IMG/VR virus record: IMGVR_UViG_3300037246_000136
Span: 1 to 43,542 of that record
DNA length: 43,542 nt
Strand: one strand, 5' to 3'
DNA from: a virus
Shown here: positions 1 through 43,542 of the stretch, piece after piece
Position numbering within the stretch: position 1 is the stretch's first letter
Layout of the letters: every line of letters starts with the position of its first letter
Notes under the pieces: generated by a model
What the model saw: only the letters and a program-made list of their open reading frames with translations
Told to the model about the DNA's origin: nothing
Database searches by the model: none
Program-made: the position numbers and the translations under genes

Positions 1-192
1 AAGCAGCAAAAGATACTGCTGGCTAAGCATGGCACTGTTCGCCCTGCTAACTTCGTGGCCTCTCTCCTCCAGGAGAAGCGACTGCGAGACAAAATGCAGC
101 AGAAGGCCTGGAAACAGACTCGTGTCTGGAAACGTCGTTGGCTGGAGAACGAGGGGGAACTGGTAGAAGGTAACAAGTACTACCGCTACGAA
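1..192. repeat. Left copy of window-end direct repeat
   Basis: These 192 bases reappear at 43351-43542. I see only one difference, three adjacent bases at 69-71 (CCA here, GGC there), which changes a Gln codon to Ala. Both copies are open in the same frame. The copy here lacks the gene's start and the other lacks its end, which fits a circular map cut within a gene better than a natural terminal repeat. A true terminal redundancy is still possible. Confidence 0.9.
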
Positions 193-1203: not shown

Positions 1204-1387
1204 AGCCACCCATATCAAGAAATACAACAATTTAGTCCGTCAATGTGTCACAAAACACACCATGCATTATGGAGTAGACTCCCCTGAGGCACTTTACGCT
1301 CAGAGCAGGATGTTCCGCATGATCCGTCGTGACTTCCCCTACAATGAACAGGTCTGGAGTATGTCCAATGCACAACCCACAGGCTAA
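1196..1387 (+). CDS. Small basic hypothetical protein (63 aa)
   Basis: ATG at 1196 lies seven bases after AAGGAG, a strong site that fixes the start. The protein is rich in Lys, Arg, His and Met (MGKATHIKKYNNLVRQC at the start). It overlaps the preceding gene by eight bases and the following one by twenty. No family is recognised; a small nucleic-acid-binding protein is conceivable. Confidence 0.65.
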   Translation: MGKATHIKKYNNLVRQCVTKHTMHYGVDSPEALYAQSRMFRMIRRDFPYNEQVWSMSNAQPTG

Positions 1388-2288
1388 AGTAGCCTATATG
1401 ATGGCAGTAGAGTCCCTCACGAGGCACCTGGATGCTGGTGACGGACAGAGAGAAATATCTCGATTCGCTGTCACAGATAAAGGCAACGGAGGCAACGCGC
1501 ATTACCACTCCGGCCCTTGCCACTCTGCACTGAACCGTCACGACAATGTGGCAGCGTTTGTTACATCACCCAACGTGACATCCTGGAGCGACGACGACTT
1601 GTGGACTGGTGCTCGGCACAACGAAGTGCCTATCTGGGAGTTCAAGACGTTCTACAAAGAGGCGTGTCACTGGTGGGAGTGGCTCCTGCACGAGTCACCT
1701 TGGCGTGATGTGTACCTCACGAAGCCCAGCCCGGAGGAAGCTGGTGTGGTGGGTGTACATATCGACGTGAATGTCCCCTCAAACCTGGCCATGTTCGCAA
1801 CGATAGCCACGAGGCATCCCCACGAGTACCCTGCACGAGTTCGTGCTTGGAGCAGGGGGGTTGCTATGGGTGGTGACCCAGCTGTACTGAGCCTCCTTGT
1901 GGAGGGCGTGGACGTACGTGGTGAAGAGGGCGATTTGCTAGTGTCCTGCGACCACGACGGAGGTGGCATCCATGATATGTACTCTCACCGGATGATCGAC
2001 AAGAACGGCATCCGGCAGTTCGTGAAGTGGAGGCTGAAATCGGCTCACATGAACGATCCGTTGACAGTTAACGGACGGTACGGTGGTATCCACTGCTTGT
2101 TCAGCAAGGAAGGGGACAATCCCTTCAGGGACAAGCTGGCCGACATAAAGAAAGACAAGTTCACCACGGTGAATAGGTTCGACTGGGCAGATGGTATGAG
2201 GACTACCAAGCGCAGGGTATTATCCTTCGATGCAGCTGTCGAGGGTCTTTCAACTCTAAGTAAGGAGATTCGTAGTGAATACGGCTAA
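1368..2288 (+). CDS. Uncharacterised 306-aa protein upstream of the amidoligase island
   Basis: I chose ATG 1368, about nine bases after GGAG and inside the previous gene. The protein reads MHNPQAKVAYMM at its start, has a Trp-rich middle (HWWEWLLHESPW) and a basic C-terminal third. His/Asp-rich patches (GVHIDVNVPSN; SCDHDGGGIHDMYSH) could bind metal, but I cannot match them to an enzyme family. The following class I amidotransferase starts inside its last codons, so it is translated together with the island and may supply or receive its product. The role is unknown. Confidence 0.8.
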   Translation: MHNPQAKVAYMMAVESLTRHLDAGDGQREISRFAVTDKGNGGNAHYHSGPCHSALNRHDNVAAFVTSPNVTSWSDDDLWTGARHNEVPIWEFKTFYKEACHWWEWLLHESPWRDVYLTKPSPEEAGVVGVHIDVNVPSNLAMFATIATRHPHEYPARVRAWSRGVAMGGDPAVLSLLVEGVDVRGEEGDLLVSCDHDGGGIHDMYSHRMIDKNGIRQFVKWRLKSAHMNDPLTVNGRYGGIHCLFSKEGDNPFRDKLADIKKDKFTTVNRFDWADGMRTTKRRVLSFDAAVEGLSTLSKEIRSEYG

Positions 2289-2940
2289 AGTTTGGATCGT
2301 AGAAGGCAACCAGCAGTACATCAACATGTTCCAGCACCAGGGATGGGAGGTAGTCTCCTCCATTGAGGAAGCTGATCTCGTACAGTTCACCGGGGGATCG
2401 GATGTTTCCCCCGACATGTACGGTGAGAAAGCACACCCTTACACCAGTGCTAACCCGCTGCGGGACGAGCGAGAGGCTCGGATCTTCCGCATTGCTACTC
2501 ACCTGAAGAAGCCGATGGCTGGTATCTGTCGAGGTGGGCAGTTCCTGAACGTCATGTGTGGTGGTTGGTTGTACCAGCATGTCAACAACCACGCCATACA
2601 CGGCACCCACACGGCGATTAACGTGGAAACCAACTGTATCCTGCCTGTCACCTCGACACACCATCAGATGATGCGTGCGGGGCTTGACGCCAGGATCTTG
2701 GGCATCGCTAGTGAGTCCACTCAGTGCGAGAACATGGAAGGCGGCTCGCTTAACTACCACGATCAGGAAGACGGCACGGATGTCGAGGTCCTGTTCTACC
2801 CGAAAGAGAAAGTGTTGTGCTTTCAACCACACCCTGAGTACATGGAACTCGTGGCCCCGTGCCAGAAGTGGTACTTTAAACTGATCAAAGACAAGCTCGG
2901 AGTAAGCGCGGATGCGGAAGACGAAGAAGGACAAGGTTGA
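2275..2940 (+). CDS. Class I glutamine amidotransferase / peptidase C26-like protein (221 aa)
   Basis: GTG at 2275 is seven bases after TAAGGAG. Class I amidotransferase-like hydrolases free ammonia from glutamine, or cleave gamma-glutamyl bonds in the C26 branch. The nucleophile elbow is GICRGGQ with Cys85, and the usual His-Glu pair lies in FQPHPEY (His186, Glu188). An oxyanion-region TGGSDV motif is near residue 39. The length fits a free-standing domain. It opens a run containing a class II amidotransferase, two amidoligases and an ATP-grasp ligase, so either ammonia supply or trimming of gamma-glutamyl products is plausible. The sequence does not decide between them. Confidence 0.88.
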   Translation: MNTAKVWIVEGNQQYINMFQHQGWEVVSSIEEADLVQFTGGSDVSPDMYGEKAHPYTSANPLRDEREARIFRIATHLKKPMAGICRGGQFLNVMCGGWLYQHVNNHAIHGTHTAINVETNCILPVTSTHHQMMRAGLDARILGIASESTQCENMEGGSLNYHDQEDGTDVEVLFYPKEKVLCFQPHPEYMELVAPCQKWYFKLIKDKLGVSADAEDEEGQG

Positions 2941-3193
2941 GCAGGGAACTGCGAAACTTGTGAAGTTTCACGACGGCAAGTTCGGTGTTCAGACCGACAA
3001 GGGGTACTGTAGTGCCTCTGCTGCCCGCAATGGAGTATACCGTCACGACTGGTCGTACTGGTCACGTGACACACAGATCGAGGAGTACTGTCATATGTCG
3101 CGTGAAGCTGCAGACAGGATCTTCATTGAGCTGACAACCACCCAAGCAGCACCAATTATCATTACGGAGAAAGAAGTATGTGTGGAAATGTAG
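2912..3193 (+). CDS. Small hypothetical protein (93 aa) within the amidoligase island
   Basis: ATG at 2912, about nine bases after GGAG, overlaps the preceding gene by 29 bases and the next by 16. The N-terminus is Lys-rich (MRKTKKDKVEQGTAK), the centre is Tyr/Trp-rich (YRHDWSYWSRD) and the end is beta-like (APIIITEKEV). It has no catalytic motif. Its tight position between two amidotransferases makes it a candidate accessory subunit or substrate of the island, which is inference only. Confidence 0.7.
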   Translation: MRKTKKDKVEQGTAKLVKFHDGKFGVQTDKGYCSASAARNGVYRHDWSYWSRDTQIEEYCHMSREAADRIFIELTTTQAAPIIITEKEVCVEM

Positions 3194-4611
3194 GAATGGC
3201 AGGTGATATCGACAAGGAGGACAGGAGCATGTTTCGGCAGATGCTGATCGTGGATGCCATCCGTGGTCACCATAGTACCGGGGTAGCGTCTGCTACCACG
3301 AAGAAGGGGGAGATCCTGGTGTTCAAGAAGGCCTTGAACCCGATCGACTTCATGCAGCTGCGAGGGTTCGATCAGGTAGTGGACTGGTCGTCACAGGTCC
3401 TGATGGGCCACAACCGCTACGCCACGGTAGGCAAGATCAATCATGCTGGGGCTCACCCGTTTGAGCACAACGGCATGGTGGGAGCACACAACGGCACACT
3501 GGAACGGTGGTTTGCGTTACCCCGGTCAGCTGACTTCGATGTGGACTCCGAGTGTCTGCTCTGGAACATATCAGAGTTCGGCTTCGAGGAGACGATGAAG
3601 AAGGTGTACGGTGCGTATGCCCTCGTCGTATATGATGACAATGCTCACGAGCTGCATCTCCTGCGGAACAAGGAGCGTCCGCTGTACTTCGGCTACAAGG
3701 ATGATCGCAGTGTTATGTACTGGGCGTCCGAGCCGTGGATGATACGCAACATGGCCGCTCGCTGTGGTATCAAGCTGTGTAAGAACATCCAGCAACCGAA
3801 GGAGCACCAGCTGCTCACCTGGAAGTTGCCGAATGTGAAGAACGGTAAGATGCCTGAGCCTATCTACAAGAAGTTGGAGGCCCCTGCAGCAAAACAGATC
3901 ATCGCCCCAGTCACGTACAACCAAGGCCGTCCATACACCACGGCTCCCGCGCGTCAAGGCGGACAGACTGGGGCTTCCTCCCCCCGTAGAGTGTACGCCG
4001 CCGGGAATAACCTTATCCCAGGGGTTAGCGTTGGCGATAATATTGCCTTTTGTCCTGTACAAATCTCGAAAGCCGCGTCGTCCCAAGTTCAGTACATTGA
4101 AGGGATAATGACTAAAGATCCCTGGTCTGAGGTCCGGGTATACAGTGCAGCGCCTGCACTGATGAAGACGCTGGTCGAGGGTGAACGTGTAGTGATAGGT
4201 AACATCACTGCGATAGCACCAGGTCTGGTGGCAAAGGATGATCCGTACATCATTATGAGTTCGGCGTTCTTGAAGCAGACCTCGGAGTCTTCCAACATCG
4301 TTGGGGACGTGGAGTTCAAGACTCTGGAGACTGCCCTCAATGTAGTACTGACCAAGAAACAGACTGCTGAAGCTGAGACTGTGGCGTACATTGAGAAGGC
4401 CCGCAAGGAAGCACATGATGCGGACAATCGTGTCGTCATGGAGATATTCTATCCCGGTCCCGGTGGCAAGATGATTACATCAGCACGATGGAATGATCTT
4501 ACCAAGCATGGCTGTGGCTACTGCACAGCTGCAATCAACGACGCAGAAGATGTGAAGTGGGTAGGTGACTCTCCCGTATGCAGCGACTGCGAAGACCACA
4601 ATATCCATTAG
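3178..4611 (+). CDS. Class II (Ntn) glutamine amidotransferase with C-terminal zinc ribbon (477 aa)
   Basis: The sequence starts MCGNVG, so Cys2 becomes the N-terminal nucleophile after Met removal, as in the PurF/GlmS type. Other class II signatures are RGHHSTG (29-35), GHNRYATVG (77-85) and GAHNG (102-106). The domain ends near residue 210. The remaining 260 residues have no synthase domain that I recognise and finish with CGYC (446-449) and CSDC (468-471), a probable zinc ribbon. The protein should release ammonia from glutamine for a partner ligase. Class II amidotransferases are known beside amidoligases in phiEco32-like phages. The start is fixed by Cys2 and a GGAG site. Confidence 0.9.
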   Translation: MCGNVGMAGDIDKEDRSMFRQMLIVDAIRGHHSTGVASATTKKGEILVFKKALNPIDFMQLRGFDQVVDWSSQVLMGHNRYATVGKINHAGAHPFEHNGMVGAHNGTLERWFALPRSADFDVDSECLLWNISEFGFEETMKKVYGAYALVVYDDNAHELHLLRNKERPLYFGYKDDRSVMYWASEPWMIRNMAARCGIKLCKNIQQPKEHQLLTWKLPNVKNGKMPEPIYKKLEAPAAKQIIAPVTYNQGRPYTTAPARQGGQTGASSPRRVYAAGNNLIPGVSVGDNIAFCPVQISKAASSQVQYIEGIMTKDPWSEVRVYSAAPALMKTLVEGERVVIGNITAIAPGLVAKDDPYIIMSSAFLKQTSESSNIVGDVEFKTLETALNVVLTKKQTAEAETVAYIEKARKEAHDADNRVVMEIFYPGPGGKMITSARWNDLTKHGCGYCTAAINDAEDVKWVGDSPVCSDCEDHNIH

Positions 4612-4623
4612 CGAGGTACTACT

Positions 4624-5451
4624 ATGACGATACTTATAGGGGCTGACCCTGAAGTGTTCGCAAAGAAGAAAGGGGTGTACGTCTCAGCCCACAACATGGT
4701 TCCCGGCACGAAGGAGAACCCCCACCCCGTTGACAACGGAGCAGTGCAGGTAGACGGCATGGCTCTCGAGTTCAACATCCACCCCGCTGGTTCACGGCAG
4801 GAGTTCGTCCACAACATGGGCTCCGTGATGAAGCAGCTCAAGGCCATGTGCCCCGGGTACAGGTTAGTTGCTGACCCCGTGGCTGAGTTCGGCAAGGCTT
4901 ACATGGATGAACAGCCTGAGGAAGCGAAGGAGTTAGGGTGTGATCCCGACTACAATGCTTGGCGTATGGGCCGCGAGAACCCCCGACCGGATGGCGATGC
5001 TGACTTCCGGACAGGTGCAGGTCACATCCACATCGGGTTGTGGTCTCCCGACATCGTGGTTAAGAACCATTATCACATCGCGATAGAGCTGGTGAAGCAG
5101 CTGGACTTCTATCTGGGCCTGCCTTCCCTCGTGTACGACAAGGATACCCGACGACGCGAGCTGTACGGTGCAGCAGGGGCGTATCGCATCAAGCCCTATG
5201 GTGTTGAGTACCGTGTGCTCAGCAACAAGTGGGTGAGCAGTGTGAGGCTCCAGCGGTGGGTGTATGATAACACTCTGGATGCTATTGCTAACCTGAAGAT
5301 GGGTAACAACCTGGCCGAGCGGTACGGCAGTGTACAACAGATGATCAATCGGTCAGACACTCGTGCAGCCGCCCGTGTGGTCAAGCAGTACAAGATCAAG
5401 CCTGCACCCTTACCATTAGTGAAGAAGAGGAGAGCGAAACGTGTGGGATAA
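4624..5451 (+). CDS. COOH-NH2 amidoligase, phiEco32 type (275 aa)
   Basis: This matches the phage COOH.NH2 ligase family, which has a glutamine-synthetase-like fold and joins a carboxylate to an amine using ATP. Visible motifs are GADPEVF (6-12), ALEFNIHPA (47-55, Glu and Asn for metal/ATP), GAGHIHIGLW (131-140, the paired-His strand) and EYRVLS (195-200). The Lys/Arg-rich tail (VKKRRAKRVG) could contact nucleic acid or a partner. It sits 12 bases after the class II amidotransferase and overlaps the next gene by 11 bases. The substrate is unknown. Confidence 0.88.
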   Translation: MTILIGADPEVFAKKKGVYVSAHNMVPGTKENPHPVDNGAVQVDGMALEFNIHPAGSRQEFVHNMGSVMKQLKAMCPGYRLVADPVAEFGKAYMDEQPEEAKELGCDPDYNAWRMGRENPRPDGDADFRTGAGHIHIGLWSPDIVVKNHYHIAIELVKQLDFYLGLPSLVYDKDTRRRELYGAAGAYRIKPYGVEYRVLSNKWVSSVRLQRWVYDNTLDAIANLKMGNNLAERYGSVQQMINRSDTRAAARVVKQYKIKPAPLPLVKKRRAKRVG

Positions 5452-6031
5452 CTATGATGACGCCCGTATGCGGTGCAGTGGCACTGTGGTACGGCACAAG
5501 GGCATGCCTATGTACATCGTGGACCTGACCCAGAACCTGGCTGTGCACGCTACCAACCTGTTGACGCAGCTGACCGTAGTGGAGCCTCTCAACAGTGAGA
5601 ACTGGAACTGGAAGCCGGTGCCTCTGGGATACGTCAACACTGGACCCCAGGCGGTGTACGTGTTTCGTCGTCCGATCCGCAAATGGAAGCAGGGCCTCCA
5701 CCGCGACAACATGGGTGTAGGTAACCGGGCAGACCTGGCCCCAATCCGTCTCCGTCATGCTGATATCCTCCGCAGCCGGGAACTGGGTCGGTGTATACAG
5801 AGGGACTACCCGTCCTTCGAGGATGCATCGAAGGCCGTGATGGAAGGGGACGCGAGGGGTAAGGTAGCATCTCGCTCGTTCCACCCCGAGTTCAGCCTGG
5901 AGCGCAACGAGTTAGGCCTGTTGTGGTTGGCATACCGGGGTACCCGTGTGGGTTGGTATGAAAAAGGACATCTTCGTCTCGGCGAGGGGATGCAACACTT
6001 GATTCAATTGTATGAGGAGGTAGTAGCATGA
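5441..6031 (+). CDS. Uncharacterised island protein (196 aa)
   Basis: GTG at 5441 follows an AAGAGGAGAG site, within the end of the first amidoligase gene. The product starts MWDNYDDARMRC, has a beta-like first half and a helical second half, and contains ERNELGLLWLAYRG and RLGEGMQHLIQLYEE. I see no catalytic motif. It is flanked on both sides by amidoligases with start/stop overlaps, so it very likely acts with them, possibly as a substrate-recognition or carrier protein. Confidence 0.8.
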   Translation: MWDNYDDARMRCSGTVVRHKGMPMYIVDLTQNLAVHATNLLTQLTVVEPLNSENWNWKPVPLGYVNTGPQAVYVFRRPIRKWKQGLHRDNMGVGNRADLAPIRLRHADILRSRELGRCIQRDYPSFEDASKAVMEGDARGKVASRSFHPEFSLERNELGLLWLAYRGTRVGWYEKGHLRLGEGMQHLIQLYEEVVA

Positions 6032-7416
6032 GGATGATAGAGATGTTAAACGTCGAGCCCAAGGTGGGCGAGATCGGCATCGAGGTGGAGCTAGAGGGAG
6101 AGGGACTTCCCAAGCGACACACTGCATCGTGGCGTGTGGAAGGGGACGGTAGCTTGCGTGGCGAATCCATCGAGATGGTACTGAAGACCCCGGTCAAGCG
6201 TATCAGTATGCAGGCAAAGTTACGAGAGTTCGAGAAGGCCATCAAGGGAGCGAGGATAGAAGACTCCGGTCGAGCGGGCATCCATATCCACATCAACATC
6301 CAAGAGCTTACATCCCGTGAGCTGGCACAATTCATGTGCTTGTACCTTGTCTTTGAGAACACACTCGTAGAATGGTGTGGCCAGGGCCGGGTAGGGAACC
6401 TATTCTGCCTGCGGTGCGAAGATGCACCGGGCTTGCTCGATCAGTTACAACTCGCGTTCAAGTCGGAGGACTGGCAGCACCTGAATACCGACGAGCTTCG
6501 GTATGCCTCGATGAATGCGAAGGCCGTGTGTACATACGGCAGCCTTGAGTTCCGTGCAATGCGGAGCACCCGGGACATACGTCTCATCAGTCAGTGGGCT
6601 AAGATGTTGTTAGCCATCAAGGACAAGGCTGTTAAGTTCAACAGCCCGATGGAGATCGTCGAAGGGTTGTCTCTCCGAGGTGTCGAAGCGTTCTACGACG
6701 ACGTGGTCGGGGGTTTCCCGGGCCTGAAGTTCCGCAACACTGATCTCATGACCGGTGTTCGGAATGCCCAGCAGCTAGCCTATGCCCGTCAGGACTGGGG
6801 CAAGTTGGTAGTAAAGACGTATGATTACGACGGCCTCGACGTAATCCAGGACGAAGAGGCAGCTGCACCCAAGGCGTTCAGGCAAATGGACTTCGGCATC
6901 CCTAAGATGATGAAGCCAGAGAAGAGGGGTCCTCTACGTAATCACCCGATCCCTCCCGATCTGCTGGATGAACGGGATGATGAGGAACCCGTACAGGGAG
7001 ATGTGTTAGTTGACCCAGACATGGCCCCAGCTGCTGTGGAGATGCCTATGGCAGGACAGGCGGTGCGTCATCAGGACAGGGGTGAGGGCTTACCTGCGGG
7101 AGACCGGGGTAGAGACCGGGGTAAGCAGCGTGTCTTGAGGAACGGAGGTATGTACTACCGCATCAGGACTCGAGGTCAGTATCATTGGCTGACAGTCATG
7201 GACATAGATCACTTGGCACGACGTATGGTACTGGATACACTGAGTGCTGCGGGGATTGAACGTCTCAATTCCTTCTTCTCCAACCACTGGATGGATATCA
7301 TACTGGGTAAGCACACAAACGCTCGTCTGCCTATGGCTCTCTTGCAAGCTGTGAGAGAGATAGAGATCGCAGAGATGGACGAACAACTAGACGAAGACGA
7401 GGAGGACATGGAATGA
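6028..7416 (+). CDS. Second amidoligase (amidoligase_2-like) with long C-terminal extension (462 aa)
   Basis: ATG 6028 overlaps the previous stop (ATGA) with AGGAGG eight bases upstream. The catalytic region shows GIEVELEGEGL (17-27), a GDGSLRG turn (39-45), AGIHIHINIQ (83-92) and GSLEFRAMRST (171-181), the conserved pattern of glutamine-synthetase-fold amidoligases. After about residue 290 comes a Pro/Arg/Asp-rich linker with repeated GRDRG, then a folded-looking segment (GMYYRIRTRGQYHWLTV) and a very acidic end (DEQLDEDEEDME). The extension is unusual for a plain amidoligase and may bind the substrate. ATGA overlap couples it to the ATP-grasp gene. Confidence 0.87.
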   Translation: MRMIEMLNVEPKVGEIGIEVELEGEGLPKRHTASWRVEGDGSLRGESIEMVLKTPVKRISMQAKLREFEKAIKGARIEDSGRAGIHIHINIQELTSRELAQFMCLYLVFENTLVEWCGQGRVGNLFCLRCEDAPGLLDQLQLAFKSEDWQHLNTDELRYASMNAKAVCTYGSLEFRAMRSTRDIRLISQWAKMLLAIKDKAVKFNSPMEIVEGLSLRGVEAFYDDVVGGFPGLKFRNTDLMTGVRNAQQLAYARQDWGKLVVKTYDYDGLDVIQDEEAAAPKAFRQMDFGIPKMMKPEKRGPLRNHPIPPDLLDERDDEEPVQGDVLVDPDMAPAAVEMPMAGQAVRHQDRGEGLPAGDRGRDRGKQRVLRNGGMYYRIRTRGQYHWLTVMDIDHLARRMVLDTLSAAGIERLNSFFSNHWMDIILGKHTNARLPMALLQAVREIEIAEMDEQLDEDEEDME

Positions 7417-8180
7417 AATCATTCATCTACCCGTACAAGGCGGGTTCACACAGTGCCAAGGCTCTCGCCAAGGCATCTAACTCCCGCCGCATCAAGCGGG
7501 AGGGAAGCAAGTTCGTTGGCACCGCCCTCAAGGTGGTTGTCAACTGGGGCAGCAGTACCATGCCCCGAGGGGTGGCAGAGGCTAACGTGCTGAACAGGCA
7601 CATAGCTGTCAAGCAGGCGGGCAATAAGCTGGCTGCCTTCCGAGCTATGGAGGAGGCGGGGGTTAGTATCCCTCCCTTCACCGACGACATAGCCTACGCC
7701 AAGAGCTGGATACTCCACGGCCAAGAGGTGGTGTGCCGTAAGAAGCTCACCGGCTACGGTGGTGATGGCATAGTCATGGCCAGCACTATGGAGGAGATGG
7801 TTCCTGCTCCTCTGTACACACGGTACATCAAGAAGATCTCAGAGTGGCGTGTTCACGTCTTCCGTGATGAGATCATCATGCTCCAGCGCAAGGCGCGACG
7901 CCTCGATGTGCCGGACGACCAGGTCAACTGGCAGGTACGGAACCACGACAACGGGTTCATCTTCGAGCACATGGAGGTCAACCCTCCCGTGCAGGTGGTG
8001 GATCAGTCAATGAAAGCTGTCGAGGCATTGAAGCTGGACTTCGGTGCTGTCGATGTTGTCTTCAACGAGAGGGACGATGAAGCATACGTCCTTGAGATCA
8101 ACTGTGCACCGGGGCTGGAGGGTACTACTCTCGAGCGTTACTCCGCTGCTATTGAGAGGTACAAGCATGACGCAGGATGA
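7413..8180 (+). CDS. RimK-like ATP-grasp ligase (255 aa)
   Basis: ATP-grasp enzymes activate a carboxylate as acyl phosphate and join it to an amine or thiol, typically adding an amino acid to a peptide. Visible elements are a Lys before the nucleotide loop (VVCRKKLTGYGGDG, 106-119), the central strand RYIKKISEWRVHVF (137-150) and the metal-binding LEINCAPGLEG (227-237) with Glu229 and Asn230. The size matches a compact phage ATP-grasp without a pre-grasp domain. It closes the catalytic part of the island and is coupled to genes on both sides. It probably extends or ligates the peptide that the amidoligases modify. Confidence 0.88.
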   Translation: MKSFIYPYKAGSHSAKALAKASNSRRIKREGSKFVGTALKVVVNWGSSTMPRGVAEANVLNRHIAVKQAGNKLAAFRAMEEAGVSIPPFTDDIAYAKSWILHGQEVVCRKKLTGYGGDGIVMASTMEEMVPAPLYTRYIKKISEWRVHVFRDEIIMLQRKARRLDVPDDQVNWQVRNHDNGFIFEHMEVNPPVQVVDQSMKAVEALKLDFGAVDVVFNERDDEAYVLEINCAPGLEGTTLERYSAAIERYKHDAG

Positions 8181-13698: not shown

Positions 13699-13849
13699 GG
13701 AAGGTGAGCTGGAGGAGCGTATCAAGCAACTCCTGCTTGTGATGGCGGATGATGCTTTCATAATAGAGAACCAAGCACGGACGATCAAGCAACTGTCACA
13801 TCAGTTGTCTGGTCTCCAACAAAGACTAATGAAAAGGAAACGAGTATGA
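13670..13849 (+). CDS. Small coiled-coil protein overlapping the polymerase end (59 aa)
   Basis: TTG 13670 lies nine bases after AGGGAG and 29 bases inside the polymerase gene; GTG 13739 and ATG 13742 are later options without a site. The protein is a charged helix with heptad spacing (ELEERIKQLLLV, NQARTIKQLSHQLSGLQQRL) and ends in KRKRV. Its stop overlaps the next ATG. Coiled-coil dimer likely; role unknown. Confidence 0.55.
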   Translation: MDETGARRTREGELEERIKQLLLVMADDAFIIENQARTIKQLSHQLSGLQQRLMKRKRV

Positions 13850-14064
13850 GGATTGGTGAAGTTGTGAAGAACATGGAGGACGGGTACCCTATGCAGCGCA
13901 CCGGCTGGAACGGGGAAGATATGTTCATCATGATACAGGAGCCCGACATCAAGAGTAAGATGACCGAGCCGTATGTCTACATGTCTTCAGCAGTGGGTGG
14001 TAAAATACCTTGGCTTTGTTCTCAAGCTGACCTGTTGGCAGACGATTGGAACTTCGTAGTTTAA
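13846..14064 (+). CDS. DUF2829 protein, Tad2-like Thoeris inhibitor candidate (72 aa)
   Basis: The protein carries the family pattern along its whole length: a first helix (GEVVKNMEDG), RTGWNG (18-23), a beta strand ending in YVYMSS, and the closing PWLCSQADLLADDW (about 55-68). DUF2829 includes Tad2, a tetramer that binds and sequesters the 1''-3' glycocyclic ADP-ribose signal made by Thoeris immunity. Not every family member has been tested, so inhibitor is an inference. ATG 13846 overlaps the previous stop and has AAGGAAACG upstream. It lies between replication genes, as accessory anti-defence genes often do. Confidence 0.85.
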   Translation: MRIGEVVKNMEDGYPMQRTGWNGEDMFIMIQEPDIKSKMTEPYVYMSSAVGGKIPWLCSQADLLADDWNFVV

Positions 14065-43338: not shown

Positions 43339-43542
43339 ATGAAATTGACAAAGCAGCAAAAGATACTGCTGGCTAAGCATGGCACTGTTCGCCCTGCTAA
43401 CTTCGTGGCCTCTCTCCTGGCGGAGAAGCGACTGCGAGACAAAATGCAGCAGAAGGCCTGGAAACAGACTCGTGTCTGGAAACGTCGTTGGCTGGAGAAC
43501 GAGGGGGAACTGGTAGAAGGTAACAAGTACTACCGCTACGAA
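43339..43542 (+). CDS. Small basic hypothetical protein, 5' part of the split gene
   Basis: ATG 43339 follows AAGGAAAAC and begins MKLTKQQKILLAKHGT. The frame is open to the window end and continues at base 193 if the circle is closed, giving about 84 residues. In this copy residue 27 is Ala where the left copy has Gln. Confidence 0.72.
   Translation, partial: MKLTKQQKILLAKHGTVRPANFVASLLAEKRLRDKMQQKAWKQTRVWKRRWLENEGELVEGNKYYRYE
43351..43542. repeat. Right copy of window-end direct repeat
   Basis: It matches bases 1-192 except at 43419-43421 (GGC against CCA). The variant bases lie at the centre of a short inverted repeat (CTCC...GGAG), a place where sequencing or assembly error, or true population variation, is plausible. 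Confidence 0.9.

Follow-up and report, generated by a model that had tools for sequence, protein, structure and literature searches.

A diverged member of a widespread phage amidotransferase, amidoligase and ATP-grasp gene cassette, and its possible role in building and trimming a gamma-glutamyl amide

In RIO-1-like phages, a set of genes encoding two amidoligases, an ATP-grasp ligase and a glutamine amidotransferase beside the replication genes has been described as a "seven-gene peptidoglycan modification cassette", with RIO-1/PSA-HP1, phiEco32, 7-11, PA11, tf, LUZ24, PaP3 and CW02 as its carriers (PMC5498523). The peptidoglycan-modification reading is repeated, with a lysis hypothesis added, in a further description (PMC11945000), and nitrogen metabolism has been proposed for the Planctomycetes phage ZRK32, which has the same gene types (PMC10945688). 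The IMG/VR virus record IMGVR_UViG_3300037246_000136, of 43,542 bases, was analysed here over its whole length (positions 1 to 43,542; hereafter the window), and each of the published elements was found in it. An earlier reading of the sequence alone had likened the island at 2275–8180 to gene sets of phiEco32-like phages; this likeness stands, but the set is wider than that and had been published as the peptidoglycan-modification cassette (PMC5498523; PMC11945000). The cassette is already known and widespread, and that of the window is a new, diverged member.

The cassettes of PA11, PaP3 and CW02 were compared directly with the window. The RIO-1-like cassette includes a gamma-glutamyl cyclotransferase (GGCT, PF06094), variable among carriers, whereas the window has a Peptidase_C26-type (C26) gene and no PF06094 match, and it additionally has an orphan open reading frame (ORF2) and an extended second amidoligase (gene 6). 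The Zobellviridae cassettes (PA11, O4, CVT22, Klyazma, GP100 and oyster phages) have the same order as the window and the same neighbours, namely primase/helicase, sigma factor and DNA polymerase, yet the window proteins are well under 60% identical to their counterparts there. No close DNA relative of the window was found in the phage collection.

Profile searches were run over 22 loci at first, then over 80 further IMG/VR loci and 12 loci on genome contigs, with the main locus set picked by gene 4; single-sequence scans of viral contigs gave almost nothing, and alignments were needed, that of ORF5 being too diverged for scanning. Across these loci a consistent order was observed: gene 0, gene 1 (C26), gene 3 (class II), gene 4, ORF5, gene 6 and gene 7. 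Genes 3–7 are present in all 66 fully flanked loci, gene 1 in 61 and gene 0 in 60, and the order 0-1-3-4-5-6 is kept in 54 of the 66. The two amidoligases with ORF5 between them (genes 4-5-6) lie in order and on one strand in every one of the 103 loci that hold all three. As a check on ascertainment, loci were also picked by C26, and among those with adequate flanks genes 3–7 were present in 63/63 and gene 0 in 59/63; many of these contigs are common to the gene 4 set, so that this is not a fully separate sample. The amide- and peptide-bond synthesis set of the sequence-only reading is supported, with conserved linkage, by this comparison of order and co-occurrence, and the genes are not scattered independently. 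The seven genes that it listed were, however, not quite the right seven. ORF2 has no homologue in any locus searched, being present in the window only, and because of this it is not a conserved member on the loci compared. Gene 0, which had been missed, normally lies directly before the C26 gene according to hidden Markov model matches, and by its recurrence is a core member, giving a core of seven genes that differs from the seven first listed (Table 1). In several phages (loci L006, L010 and L022) the run of cassette genes is interrupted by inserted HNH endonuclease genes.

GGCT genes recur near the cassettes, with a distribution complementary to that of C26. In the fully flanked loci GGCT was found in 5/5 without C26 vs 12/61 with it (Fisher p = 0.0007), a comparison weakened by the confinement of GGCT detection in metagenomic loci to the available flanks. 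Eight further phages, picked by gene 4 similarity, gave the same picture: GGCT is present in all seven that are without C26 and absent from the eighth, which has C26. Across 22 whole phage records, four of which had already served to form the idea, GGCT is present in 11/11 without C26 vs 1/11 with C26 (p = 3e-5). As related phages are not independent, the pattern was mapped on the gene 4 tree, where C26 is absent in five separate clades, each with GGCT. The C26 hydrolase apparently stands in for GGCT in the window, just as it does in the other members with C26. Cleavage of gamma-glutamyl amides is known for both types of enzyme and, together with their complementary distribution, points to a gamma-glutamyl intermediate from which the glutamyl group is to be removed, a removal that looks obligatory. 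In the butirosin side-chain pathway (BtrJ/BtrG) and the putrescine pathway (PuuA/PuuD), an ATP-dependent ligase adds a gamma-glutamyl group that a GGCT or C26 hydrolase later removes; the resemblance to the cassette is one of logic only, as the ligase families, partners and hosts are different.

Table 1. Genes of the cassette and the orphan reading frame in the window.
Feature	Position	Strand	Description
Core gene 0	1344..2288	+	~314 aa, unannotated; reading frame opens at 1329, exact start uncertain
Core gene 1	2275..2940	+	Peptidase_C26-type class-I glutamine amidotransferase fold; triad Cys85-His186-Glu188
ORF2	2912..3193	+	93 aa, separating the two amidotransferase genes; outside the conserved set
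Core gene 3	3178..4611	+	Class-II (Ntn) glutamine amidotransferase; Cys2, Arg80, Asn105, Asp123
Core gene 4	4624..5451	+	Phage COOH-NH2 ligase, glutamine-synthetase/GCS-like fold, PF14395
Core gene 5 (ORF5)	5441..6031	+	196 aa, phrog_11055; modelled SH3-like beta-barrels
Core gene 6	6028..7416	+	Amidoligase_2 (PF12224) with C-terminal extension
Core gene 7	7413..8180	+	RimK/MptN-like ATP-grasp ligase, downstream ("D") clade

The consecutive two amidotransferases, two amidoligases and RimK-like ATP-grasp ligase that had been read from the sequence were confirmed through Pfam and PHROG matches. Gene 1 matches PF07722 (6.5e-20; 72.3 bits vs a cut-off of 20.5) and phrog_7218 (8.8e-53); its profile relatives include the gamma-glutamyl-GABA hydrolase PuuD, and it weakly matches gamma-glutamyl-CDP-amidate hydrolase. 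Gene 3 matches PF13522 (2.4e-18) and phrog_4736 (1.5e-73), and its C-terminal half has two conserved CxxC pairs (CxxC...CxxC), a possible zinc-binding module. For the amidoligases, gene 4 matches PF14395 (1.8e-9; 37.7 bits vs a curated cut-off of 25) and phrog_3815 (2.5e-85), and gene 6 matches PF12224 (1.1e-7; 32.4 bits vs 22) and phrog_7469 (3.1e-71) and carries the ExExE and HxH motifs of Amidoligase_2. The C-terminal extension of gene 6 is ~190 aa long; most relatives are without it, and the distant GAP52 and PaP3 proteins are also long. Gene 7 matches phrog_2599 (2.9e-87), PF02655 (3.6e-6) and, weakly, RimK; because it scores under the curated RimK cut-offs (37.2 bits vs 143.4 for NCBIfam, and 16.9 vs 21 for PF08443), it is by sequence RimK-like and not a RimK. 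Sequence searches of the PDB for genes 0, 4, 5 and 6 returned nothing useful, and matches to phosphotriesterase and designed pentatricopeptide entries were rejected as chance-level or short helical.

The motifs of all five enzymes are intact in the window, as had been stated, and in nearly every homologue, so that catalytic residues are kept rather than lost in most relatives. The C26 triad is intact in 86/86 homologues, and the class-II residues in 78 of 79 complete sequences; the one that departs is the diverged second copy of the gene in phiM6. Eight charged or histidine residues of gene 4 are intact in 104/104, a figure that is biased, given that the loci were selected with gene 4 and the search patterns included two of its motifs. 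Gene 6 keeps its catalytic residues in 102 of 103 homologues and the ATP-grasp ligase in 106 of 110. The median ratio of nonsynonymous to synonymous substitution (dN/dS) is ~0.09–0.19 for genes 1 and 3–7, similar to that of primase and polymerase; for gene 0 a loose 0.4 was obtained from only four usable pairs.

No Pfam family was found for gene 0. Its Cys50 and Arg148 do not vary among 60 sequences, and Glu152 is conserved at 97%, His201 at 95% and Ser109 at 92% (residue numbers count from base 1371), and because of these residues gene 0 is probably a further enzyme, of a thiol type using the invariant cysteine. Its AlphaFold2 model is of good confidence (predicted local distance difference test, pLDDT, 84.7; predicted template modelling score, pTM, 0.86) and had no match in the PDB at E below 1. 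Against the viral structure library BFVD there were 11 matches at E<=0.001; four of these go by the name of a phage, and each of the four (CVT22, CW02, RIO-1 and GAP52) carries the cassette (known as carriers partly through PMC5498523). No listing of gene 0 among the components was found in the published descriptions consulted, in which Iyer 2009 and Hardies 2013 are represented by citation. For PaP3 orf49 and orf50, homology to gene 0 could not be established, and two Grimontviridae genes in the gene 0 position gave weak profile matches only. In Cronobacter phage GAP52 (L023 5318–7146), two adjacent, diverged gene 0-like proteins with weak profile matches occupy the gene 0 and C26 positions of other phages. 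ORF5 also has no Pfam family, and its confident model (pLDDT 94.4, pTM 0.89) is mostly beta, with local matches to PWWP/Tudor barrels only, at probabilities up to 0.99 and a best E-value of 0.13, which is not significant. It is read here as a non-catalytic SH3-like barrel protein, which may serve as scaffold or recognition subunit.

The chances are about even that the cassette encodes one cytoplasmic pathway, in which a gamma-glutamyl (or other side-chain-linked) amide is built in several ATP-driven steps and the gamma-glutamyl group is then removed. This proposal draws on the family assignments, intact active sites, fixed order, purifying selection and complementary C26/GGCT distribution; that the genes form a single pathway, how its steps are ordered, what genes 0 and 5 do and what the target is are interpretations of these data. 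Also in favour are the gamma-glutamyl hydrolase relatives of gene 1 and the middle-gene expression of most of the cassette in PaP3 (PMC4707531), and no stretch resembling a membrane segment was found in any cassette protein. The class-II amidotransferase would release ammonia from glutamine, and the amidoligases of glutamine-synthetase fold would form two amide bonds, with ORF5 as a scaffold or substrate-recognition subunit. The ATP-grasp enzyme would attach a further amino acid, and the C26 hydrolase, or GGCT in phages without C26, would strip the glutamyl group, gene 0 probably acting as a further enzyme through its cysteine.

Several points weigh against this proposal. The published descriptions found contain no measured substrate or activity for a cassette member, and no product is reported in PMC5498523, PMC11945000 or PMC10945688, in agreement with the sequence-only reading, which held that neither product nor substrate is established. 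Enzymes of the C26 fold can also serve as ammonia-producing amidotransferase subunits, so that gene 1 need not hydrolyse a gamma-glutamyl amide. The cassette of the crAss-like Cellulophaga phage phi14:2 is an incomplete set, and ORF5 was not detected at its block. Protein distances of the ATP-grasp gene correlate with those of the other cassette genes at 0.12–0.31, against 0.56–0.77 among genes 0, 1 and 3–6; on this pattern the ATP-grasp gene may serve a variable chemistry. One reason for its weak tracking is the existence of two ATP-grasp clades, one located after gene 6 (77 loci alone), to which the window gene belongs, and the other ahead of either gene 3 or gene 0 (12 loci alone), with both present in 10 loci; the two can replace each other. 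The phi14:2 block itself (L126 3629–7721) is a compact run of GGCT, ATP-grasp, COOH-NH2 ligase and class-II amidotransferase.

The ATP-grasp gene and ORF5 also bear on protein tagging, in which an amino acid or short peptide would be isopeptide-linked to a host or phage protein that ORF5 would recognise, RNA polymerase and ribosomal proteins being examples. A role in the modification of host proteins has been put forward for phage ATP-grasps of the R2K type (PMC4431377). Matches of the ATP-grasp profile include RimK, the enzyme that glutamylates ribosomal protein S6, and the SH3-like barrel is commonly a recognition module, but peptide maturases, MptN, D-Ala ligase and cyanophycin synthase are also among the matches of that profile, and the cassette is not linked with any one conserved target protein. 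Deglutamylation of the GGCT type, moreover, is known on free gamma-glutamyl amines, and protein tagging is considered unlikely.

According to the published hypothesis, unusual linkages are placed on stem peptides or cytoplasmic precursors of peptidoglycan, blocking superinfection or preparing lysis, a proposal made with citation of Iyer and Hardies, whose accounts are taken here as relayed by the citing papers, which give no muropeptide data (PMC5498523; PMC11945000). In PaP3 most of the cassette (within genes 32–48) consists of middle genes that peak with replication, at 10–30 min and not in the first minutes, a timing that fits early exclusion less (PMC4707531). UDP-MurNAc-peptides would be reachable by cytoplasmic enzymes, and a broad, mostly Gram-negative host range fits a common target; the cassette, on the other hand, contains no Mur-ligase, transporter or membrane partner. 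The glutamate of the wall is also of the D form, while the known substrates of C26 and GGCT enzymes are L-gamma-glutamyl compounds. Peptidoglycan modification as published is possible but doubtful, though it amounts to a choice of target and is compatible with the gamma-glutamyl pathway. For the target of that pathway, a cell-wall precursor or stem peptide comes closest to an even chance without reaching it; a soluble peptide or amide and a protein are each less probable, to the same degree, and anything else is improbable. A more specific version, held to be rather unlikely, is that an undescribed gamma-glutamyl-derived natural product or conjugate is made by ligation and deprotection, with gene 0 as a thiol enzyme without a solved fold relative and gene 5 as a dedicated barrel scaffold, and that this would serve host takeover or evasion of defence and not modification of the wall.

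Relatives of gene 4 were found in 516 IMG/VR stretches and in 316 records of the phage collection, with carriers among Zobellviridae, Bruynoghevirus, Krylovvirus, Grimontviridae and Lahexavirus, and including Sinorhizobium phage phiM6, Cellulophaga phage phi14:2 and E. coli phage SkaterBoy_Bas90, a GGCT carrier whose cassette lies at 51104–59558 of its record. Among 84,980 genomes of bacteria and archaea, 12 loci were reached with the ATP-grasp profile, mostly on small contigs, and this near absence of the cassette from cellular genomes argues against general nitrogen metabolism, in which the genes would assist ammonia assimilation and amino acid synthesis in the infected cell. That proposal was made for ZRK32 on the same gene types and rests on the phage's promotion of growth, not on gene tests (PMC10945688); the strictly conserved uncharacterised genes and the fixed order suggest instead a dedicated product, leaving nitrogen metabolism a quite improbable explanation.

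The first and last 192 bases of the window (1–192 and 43351–43542) are identical at 189 positions, with three adjacent mismatches at 69–71, and because of this overlap the window probably represents a whole genome of ~43.35 kb in circular assembly, although the record does not class it as circular. The + strand carries the early and replication genes, which extend to ~20 kb, and the opposite strand carries the structural genes. The island at 2275–8180 takes up 13.6% of the contig, close to the 14% first estimated, and its junctions measure -29, -16, +12, -11, -4 and -4 bases, i.e., five overlaps and one gap, in line with the claim that nearly all overlap; the gene upstream overlaps the island start by 14 bases (-14). 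Primase/helicase, sigma factor and DNA polymerase genes follow the cassette, and this adjacency to replication genes would suit DNA hypermodification, i.e., an amino-acid adduct on phage DNA bases, as some phages do make amino-acid-like base adducts. No base-modifying enzyme was recognised among the window ORFs that were scanned, however, and DNA of U17, a LUZ24-like cassette carrier, was cut by 11 of 16 restriction enzymes, while three other phages resisted 7–10 (PMC11945000), making this reading highly improbable. Near the replication genes, at 13846–14064, there is a Tad2-like protein (PF11195, Thoeris anti-defence 2-like; E 1.1e-19). A PADLOC scan gave no defence-system match, and promoter and terminator scans were at chance level.

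Relative to the published accounts consulted, this analysis adds a corrected gene set, a structural view of gene 0 and ORF5, the C26/GGCT complementarity and the two ATP-grasp clades. With gene 0 as an added member, reconstitutions made without it may fail. The complementarity of C26 and GGCT would narrow the chemistry to a gamma-glutamyl intermediate, in a cassette to which hundreds of phages devote at least a tenth of a small genome.

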